Assembly (NCBI GenBank): GCA_003223555.1 | Contig: QHVM01000018.1 | Coordinates: forward strand, 14,806-58,134 | Source: Acidobacteriota bacterium | Lineage (GTDB): Bacteria; Acidobacteriota; Vicinamibacteria; Fen-336 | Length of the DNA stretch: 43,329 nucleotides | Direction of reading: 5' to 3' | In this document: positions 10,331 through 12,467 of the stretch, piece by piece | Layout: each line of letters opens with the position of its first letter | How positions within the stretch are numbered: the stretch's first letter is position 1 | Notes under the pieces: generated by a model | Told to the model about the DNA's origin: nothing | Seen by the model: the letters and a program-made list of their open reading frames with translations, nothing else | The model's database searches: none | Translations under genes and position numbers: made by a program

Positions 10331-11503
10331 ATGCCCGATCCCTACGCGCCCAAGAAGTCCGACAAGTTCACCTTCGGCCTGTGGACCGTGGGCAACCGCG
10401 GCCGCGACCCGTTCGGCGAGGCCGTCCGTGACACGATCCCGCCTGCCCGCATCGTCCAGAAGCTCTCCGAGCTGGGCGCCTACGGCGTGAACCTGCACGA
10501 CAACGACCTCGTGCCTTTCGGGGCGAGCGCCGCGGAGCGCGACCGCATCGTCCGTGACTTCAAGAAGGCGCTCGCCGATCACGGCATGAAGGTGCCGATG
10601 GCGACGACGAACCTGTTCTTCCACCCCGTCTTCAAGGACGGCGCCTTCACCGCCAACGACCCCAAGGTCCGCGCCTTCGCCGTCCAGAAGACGATGCGCT
10701 CGATCGACCTCGGCGTGGAGCTGGGGGCGACGGTCTACGTGATGTGGGGCGGCCGCGAAGGCGTGGAAGCCGACGCCTGCCGCGATGCGCGCGAGGCCAT
10801 CAAGCGCTACCGGGAATGCGTGAACTTCCTCTGCGAGTACGTCCTCGACCAGCGTTACGAGATGCGCTTCGCGCTCGAGGCCAAGCCCAACGAGCCGCGC
10901 AGCGACATCTACCTCCCCACCACCGGCCACATCCTGGCCTTCATCGAGACCCTCGACCACCCCGAGATGGTGGGTGTGAACCCCGAGGTGGCCCACGAGC
11001 ACATGAGCGGGCTCAACTTCTACCACTCGATCGCCCAGGCCATCGACGCGGAAAAGCTCTTCCACATCGACCTCAACGACCAGAAGCCGGGCCGCTACGA
11101 CCAGGACCTGCGATTCGGCAGCGAGAGCCTGAAGGGGATGTTCTTCCTGGTCAAGCTGCTCGAGGAGTCCGGCTACGACGGCTCCCGACACTTCGACTCC
11201 CACGCCTACCGCACCGAGGACGAGGAAGGCGTGTGGGAGTTCGCGCGCGGGTCCATGCGGAGCTACCTCATCCTCAAGGAGAAGGCGCGGCGCTTCGGGG
11301 AGGACCGGCAGATCCAGGCGATCCTGAAGGAGATCGGGGCGACGGGGAACGGCGACGACCCCTACGGTCTCGGCCGCTACGGGCGCGACACGGCGAGTCG
11401 GCTCAAGGACACGAGCTTCGAGGTGGACGCGCTCGCGCGCAAGGGACTCGGCTACGAGCGATTGGACCAGCTCGTAGTCGACCTGCTGCTGGGCGCGCGA
11501 TAG
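10331..11503 (+). CDS. xylA: Xylose isomerase (class I, actinobacterial type)
   Basis: XylA converts D-xylose to D-xylulose (and glucose to fructose) in the cytoplasm. The 390-aa product has the class I length. The catalytic pair is H56/D59 in [10 protein letters not shown], equivalent to His54/Asp57 of Streptomyces enzymes. Metal ligands follow in order: Glu in [10 protein letters not shown], Glu and His in NPEVAHEHM, the Asp cluster in [15 protein letters not shown] and Asp in [11 protein letters not shown] 10331 is chosen because GAGGTGG precedes it and the protein then starts [16 protein letters not shown] as usual; the frame extends to 10241 without similarity. Its kinase partner xylB is 11 kb away in another operon. 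The last 13 codons are echoed at 11608-11646 with only synonymous differences. Confidence 0.97.
11465..11503 (+). repeat. Direct repeat copy 1 (xylA 3' end)
   Basis: These 39 bases encode the XylA C-terminus [12 protein letters not shown] plus stop. They match 11608-11646 at 35 of 39 positions. Confidence 0.9.
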
Positions 11504-11569
11504 CTCGCCGAGATCGGAATCAAGGCTGCGAGCGGAGCGGGATTCACTCCCGCGAAGCGAGCGGGGGTT

Positions 11570-11598
11570 CAAGGGGGCGCGCCGCTAGCGCCCCCTTG
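11570..11598. terminator. Strong GC hairpin downstream of xylA
   Basis: The arms CAAGGGGGCGC and GCGCCCCCTTG form a perfect 11-bp stem with a 7-nt loop. It lies 67 bp after the xylA stop and just before the duplicated xylA tail. No T-run follows, so it is either a stem-only terminator or a REP-like repeat. The preceding bases (GCGAGCGGAGCGGGATTCAC and on) look like part of a dispersed intergenic repeat. Confidence 0.5.
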
Positions 11599-11607
11599 CT
11601 CAAAGAC

Positions 11608-11646
11608 GACCAGCTCGTGGTCGACCTGTTGCTCGGCGCGCGGTAG
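11608..11646 (+). pseudogene. Remnant of a second xylA 3' end
   Basis: Thirteen codons here again read [12 protein letters not shown] and stop. The four differences from the real xylA end are GTA/GTG, CTG/TTG, CTG/CTC and CGA/CGG, all synonymous. This is the pattern expected of a diverged homologous gene under protein-level selection, not of a fresh copying error. The rest of the second gene is absent; a GC hairpin lies directly upstream. It has no start and is not functional. Confidence 0.65.
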
Positions 11647-11657
11647 CCGGACGACCC

Positions 11658-12467
11658 TCAGCCCTGCTTCAGCCCCAGCTTGGCCACCACCTCCGGCGGG
11701 CAGCCCTTCCAGTCGTAGGGCTGGTTCCCCATGAAGCCGAGGTCCTTGATGCCGATCTCGCTCGTGAAGAAGCCGGTGGCGGTCAGGTCGCGGAACAGGC
11801 TGAAGAACGCGATGCCGGCCGAGTACGCCGTGGCATGGCGCTCGGGCTCCTCGAGCGGCACCACGGTGGGCGGTCCGGCCATCCCGGTCTGCGGCGTGGG
11901 CGTCGGAGGCGAAGGCGGCTCCTTCTCGGGGTGACCGACGGCCGCGGCGCCCGCCTGCGCCGTCGGCTCCCGGCGGCCGATGTCCGGCCGGCCGCTCGGC
12001 TCGTCCTTGGGCGGGTAGGCGATGAGGTCGAGCACCTGCCGGCGCTGCTCGTCGGTGCAGTCGGCGAACCGCTTGTCGAATCGGCGGCTGCACTCGCGGT
12101 CGAGCCACATGAGCCCTCCGCGCAGGCGGGGCTGCACGCGCGAGCCCCAGAACGCCGCGTACTCGTCGACGTACTCGACGGTGCGGGCGTCGGTGGCGCT
12201 GCCCGACCGCTCGTCGCGCGGGATGATCATGTCGGCGAGGATGCGGGCCGCCTTCCACTCGTCCTCGCTGAAGAACTTGGGCACGTAGGCTCCCCTGGCC
12301 ACGGCCAGGGGAGGCGGAGCGGGCAGGCCCGTCACCGAGGGCGCCGGGGCCTGCTGCGGCGAAGCCGAACGCGCCGGCCCGGCCGCCGCCGCAACGGGCA
12401 GGCTGCCCAGCACCTTCAGGGCCATCCGCCGCGAGACGCCCTTCTTGACGTCGGGTGCGTCGCTCAT
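11658..12467 (-). CDS. Gluconate 2-dehydrogenase subunit 3-family small subunit with Tat signal
   Basis: This 269-aa protein resembles the small (gamma) subunit of membrane-associated FAD sugar dehydrogenases. That subunit carries the Tat signal for the complex and helps fold the FAD subunit. The N-terminus has VSRRMALKVLG followed by a hydrophobic stretch to ARSASP, a good twin-arginine signal. The core includes FFSEDEWKAARILADMIIPR, the family's opening helix, then TVEYVDEYAAFW. The C-terminal half has TGFFTSEIGIKDLGFMGN. A ~50-residue Pro/Glu-rich insertion lies between the two core parts. The start ATG 12467 is 11 bp after the stop of the GMC dehydrogenase gene, so the two are surely co-transcribed and form one periplasmic enzyme. 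Confidence 0.9.
   Translation of the reverse strand: MSDAPDVKKGVSRRMALKVLGSLPVAAAAGPARSASPQQAPAPSVTGLPAPPPLAVARGAYVPKFFSEDEWKAARILADMIIPRDERSGSATDARTVEYVDEYAAFWGSRVQPRLRGGLMWLDRECSRRFDKRFADCTDEQRRQVLDLIAYPPKDEPSGRPDIGRREPTAQAGAAAVGHPEKEPPSPPTPTPQTGMAGPPTVVPLEEPERHATAYSAGIAFFSLFRDLTATGFFTSEIGIKDLGFMGNQPYDWKGCPPEVVAKLGLKQG

Follow-up and report, generated by a model that had tools for sequence, protein, structure and literature searches.

In the window, by which we mean the whole 43,329-nt stretch of acidobacterial DNA that was analysed, the end of a xylA-like gene occurs twice, and the ~104 nt separating the two tail copies are mostly a dispersed two-hairpin element. It is highly probable that this element, a non-autonomous mobile unit of ~85 nt, landed at the 3′ end of xylA, its insertion duplicating ~40 bp of target (GACC...TAGC). 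A dispersed hairpin element, its insertion, target duplications of variable length and the usual preservation of gene edges are established. On this reading, the duplication would cover the last 13 codons and the stop, so that copy 1 would supply the xylA body with a full tail, and the original one would be stranded behind the element as copy 2.

The xylA Locus and Its Repeated Tail

The features of the locus, in window coordinates, are as follows.

10331–11503, + strand: intact xylA-like gene (xylose isomerase-like TIM barrel), 390 aa; Pfam AP_endonuc_2; orthologs in genomes G001 and G009
11465–11504, + strand: copy 1 of the putative duplicated target, the attached, functional xylA tail plus C
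11505–11520, + strand: 16 nt that separate the duplication from the conserved element, with no match beside other element copies
11521–11607, + strand: copy of the dispersed two-hairpin element (CAAGGCTGCGAGCGGAGCGGG...GCTCAAAGAC), from local matches, pattern matches and a 93-copy profile
11537–11553, + strand: element hairpin 1 (GCGGGA-TTCAC-TCCCGC), with compensated G-C/C-G pairs
11570–11598, + strand: element hairpin 2 (CAAGGGGGCGCGCCGCTAGCGCCCCCTTG), with compensatory changes at 3 pairs (U-A/A-U/C-G, G-C/A-U, U-A/C-G)
11608–11647, + strand: copy 2 of the putative duplicated target, a detached xylA tail without gene body
11658–12467, − strand: convergent neighbour of the gluconate 2-dehydrogenase subunit 3 family, with its stop codon ~11 nt past copy 2

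The last 13 xylA codons, including the stop (11465–11503), recur at 11608–11646 with 35 of 39 bases matching, and the four differences (GTA/GTG, CTG/TTG, CTG/CTC and CGA/CGG) are all synonymous; the preliminary description had reported this repeat with the right coordinates and the right account of its silent changes. The match extends one base past the stop (TAGC) and then breaks off in both copies. Its ungapped score is 28, against a maximum of 14 in a control of mismatched element flanks, and it is far above chance for such flanks. Copy 2 opens with GAC, in frame and immediately adjoining the element's right end. On the left side, other element copies align to the locus only from about 11516–11525 onward, and the 16 nt at 11505–11520 are probably an element end or donor flank.

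The xylA orthologs of G001 and G009, the two nearest relatives, are 83–85% identical and have a single tail, with no repeat and no element. A search of the window's genome (G000) found one xylA only. Tandem xylA genes, which the preliminary description had suggested might be seen in relatives, were looked for and were present in none of those examined. The 39-bp sequence itself has no exact match elsewhere in the genome contigs; it is the adjoining element of ~85 nt that is scattered.

Structure, Copy Number and Placement of the Element

With 11440–11660 as the query, 63 local matches were obtained in G000, nearly all of which cover just 11521–11611, some of them in tandem. The pattern of hairpin 1 occurs at 136 places in G000 (5.4 Mb) and at 133 in its congener G001, and the reversed pattern, used as a control, gave zero matches. 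Further copies were found in G003, G007, G008 and G010; none was found in G009 (xylA 83% identical).

As defined from a profile of 93 copies, the unit is ~85 nt long and comprises hairpin 1 (GCGGGA/TCCCGC), hairpin 2 and the right end GCTCAATGAnGA, and its ends are weakly inverted (left ...AGCMA, right TTGCTCA). It folds better than shuffled sequence (z −3.3). Two-sided compensatory changes are present at five predicted pairs, at three of them in many copies, as drawn from alignment A2 (A1, with rows L088 and L308 mis-stranded, was set aside); these changes show that the hairpins are maintained. No Rfam family scored above threshold for the element, with matches at chance level only, and no intrinsic terminator was found at it, the hairpin being G+C-rich and without a T-run. 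A variant in L016, L018, L022, L025 and L032 carries GGCGGCGAATTCACTTCGCCGCC in place of hairpin 1, which suggests modular exchange of that hairpin. The tandem arrays at L017, L023, L114 and L278 have units that also contain parts of the flanks, which suggests that element and flank were duplicated together in ordinary tandem fashion.

The placement of the element is enriched at gene 3′ ends. With our own simple GC3-based gene calls for the neighbourhoods, the upstream neighbour shares the orientation of the element in 69 of 95 arrays, and 36 convergent settings stand against 9 divergent ones. Convergent genes often have their stop codon at or beneath the right end (TCA), for instance at L024, L038, L041 and L139, and some left ends overlap the stop of the upstream gene; both ends may supply stop codons.

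Duplicated Gene Edges at Other Loci

At 8 of 190 distinct element sites, xylA included, the flanks contain a direct repeat that crosses a gene edge (scores 19–104), while mismatched flanks scored at most 15 except for one outlier pairing. At least seven other copies of the element thus lie between duplicated edges of 25–107 nt, beside unrelated genes in four genomes. The duplicated edges are mostly 3′ tails, together with one gene start and one operon junction:

xylA tail, G000: 40 nt duplicated
XerD-like recombinase tail, G000: 25 nt duplicated
Glyoxalase-like tail, G000: 55 nt duplicated
MFS-like gene start (name read from the translation), G000: 71 nt duplicated
Methylmalonyl-CoA-epimerase-like tail (name read from the translation), G001: 107 nt duplicated
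Operon junction (stop of one gene, start of the next), G007: 83 nt duplicated
Two gene tails, G008: 42 and 35 nt duplicated, the copies identical at both

The usual right junction reads GCTCAnnGAn followed by GAC, and the GAC is common to 6 of the 8 cases. At about 180 of the 190 copies there is no duplication; it has either been lost with age or is not always made. Excluded as other repeats were the flank matches at L078 (two tRNA-like ends), L092, L131 and L135. The weak element matches at L131 and L135 are accompanied by perfect direct repeats (50 and about 90 nt) that apparently belong to a different repeat family, and a 32-nt flanking duplication with one difference at L097 (G007) was left out of the count. 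An open frame that runs from the element into copy 2 in three G000 cases was considered and given no meaning; the frame is stopped in the G001 case. The glyoxalase-like gene with a duplicated tail (L014:428-978; G000:C138:267627-268177) looks broken upstream, its first domain ending in one frame and the duplicated tail lying in another, and the break appears to resemble an internal deletion with a frameshift.

Filled and Empty Sites

The epimerase-like locus is filled in G001, and its ortholog in G000 has no element. The G000 locus aligns to the G001 gene body joined to the detached copy and the convergent downstream gene with a score of 234, whereas the alternative G001 join, of attached copy and element, aligns less far (score 152.5). 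This filled and empty pair directly demonstrates insertion plus target duplication. The xerD-metK junction is likewise element-free in G001 and other relatives. The filled/empty comparisons therefore argue for insertion with target duplication and not for deletion of a second gene.

Silent Differences and Alternative Origins of the Duplication

Across nine coding comparisons, 15 of 16 differences between copies are silent, in matches trimmed by ungapped local score, so that divergence at match ends can be hidden. A null model in which the attached copy takes silent changes only and the detached copy takes any change expects 40–53% silent differences (P about 1e-5 to 6e-4 by mutation model). 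The silent excess is too great for plain drift of a non-coding copy; the earlier argument that silent changes do not fit a fresh non-coding duplication was therefore sound, and the copies did not simply drift apart. Each copy thus has the look of a coding allele. Judged by eye against the G001 and G009 sequences, copy 1 appears to carry three derived xylA changes and copy 2 the remaining one. The pattern would be explained by recombination between element-bearing and element-free strains or by strain mixing in the assembly. Recombination is its simplest reading: tracts would halt at the heterologous element and refresh each copy with a functional tail, and purifying selection on copy 1 would add to the silent-only pattern. 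The mixing of strain alleles in metagenome assembly may yield the identical pattern.

Recombination may also have made the duplication itself. A sister-strain fragment with gene body, tail and element would then have recombined into an element-free chromosome, with the right end of the element joining within the resident tail, and duplication and silent divergence would arise in one event. The silent excess across loci and the distribution of derived xylA changes over both copies favour this origin, as does the noncoding sequence past the two xylA stops, which is unrelated where the coding parts match. However, the copies are identical at the two G008 loci, so that divergent alleles are not required for duplication, and homologous recombination by itself gives no reason why the junction should in every case coincide with the end of the element; we regard such replacement as unlikely, though the best of the alternatives. 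Slippage, in which tail and element would have been duplicated in tandem and the second element then lost, is considerably less probable. Tandem element arrays are common, and at two loci sequence resembling the left end of the element follows the detached copy, but the second element would have to be lost at every locus, and the detached epimerase copy continues straight into the ancestral downstream gene.

A junction made by a metagenome assembler that joined two strains at the repeat is more improbable still. The draft assembly of G000 comprises 151 contigs, a high-copy repeat is present at the junction, and a chimera may explain the silent differences; against this, four independent genomes show the arrangement, the junction is consistent among them and the gene edges are for the most part intact. 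The preliminary description had taken copy 2 for the tail of a diverged second tandem xylA whose body was deleted, with the hairpin at 11570–11598 at the deletion edge. Copy 2 is a genuine xylA tail and the hairpin exists, but the hairpin is the second one of the dispersed repeat, and a lost xylA is barely credible: although all four differences are silent, xylA is single in the genome, its tail is single in G001 and G009 and no relative carries a tandem pair, the spacer is a high-copy element that recurs with its junction sequence at no fewer than seven unrelated genes, among them a gene start and an operon junction, and independent deletions of duplicate genes would not all stop at one repeat.

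Insertion Model and Possible Mechanism

Insertion with target duplication is the reading preferred here. The target would be cut with a variable stagger, or a template switch would occur during replication; the switch is hinted at by the GAC shared at the right junction in most of the duplicated cases. The 3–4 nt match at this junction suggests target preference or microhomology-primed template switching, between which the data do not separate. Intragenic insertions would be purged unless the duplication rebuilt the gene, hence survivors would be found at gene edges. Several observations weigh against the insertion model: the left xylA junction is less clean than the right one, with 16 nt unplaced; most element copies lack a duplication; the predominance of silent differences is not predicted by insertion plus drift; and no mobilising enzyme was identified. 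Y1/RAYT transposases (PF01797) are absent from G000, G001, G003, G007 and G008 (drafts 63–98% complete), and a RAYT transposase was accordingly rejected as the mobiliser in these element-bearing genomes. As a more speculative proposal, which we hold to be rather doubtful, the element may spread by a transposase-independent process resembling template switching, in which its 3′ end (GAnGAC) would pair with a target GAC and give variable duplications that rebuild gene edges, stranded copies being kept coding-like by recombination with element-free alleles.

Where the target duplication is long enough to include a gene's last or first codons, a mobile repeat can insert into coding sequence and leave the gene unbroken. 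Such duplications may help to explain how repeats fill tightly packed genomes and gather at gene ends, and the stranded tails would keep a small record of allelic exchange within this uncultured soil lineage. Annotators should not take a duplicated tail for a lost paralog when it lies beside a repeat of this kind.

Comparison with Known Systems

No published description of this acidobacterial family was found; coverage of the literature was partial, so one may exist. Of the published systems found, the nearest is YPAL/RU-2 from Yersinia and relatives. These are small palindromic, mobile, non-autonomous elements that are not A+T-rich and lack 5′-TA ends; YPAL is 168 bp long, with target duplications that vary from 3 to 26 bp (PMC2229807). 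Both YPAL and the acidobacterial element are dispersed non-coding palindromic units of <200 bp with target duplications of variable length, shown here by filled and empty sites. The acidobacterial element differs in its length of ~85 nt, its duplications of 25–107 nt and its phylum.

Like REP/BIME/REPIN sequences, the element consists of high-copy extragenic hairpins, often in tandem and near gene ends. Unlike them, its unit is longer and has two hairpins and target duplications, and no Y1_Tnp gene is present in the genomes searched. ERIC, RUP and Correia MITEs are likewise small and non-autonomous and duplicate their target when they insert (PMC2229807); they are TA-ended and most are A+T-rich, whereas the acidobacterial element is G+C-rich with long, variable duplications. 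Unusually long target duplications, of 16–28 bp, have also been reported for the IS1202 family (PMC10132070). The acidobacterial element shares this property, and no partner of the IS1202 kind was identified for it; members of the IS1202 family differ in being full insertion sequences (about 1.5 kb or more) that encode a DDE transposase.
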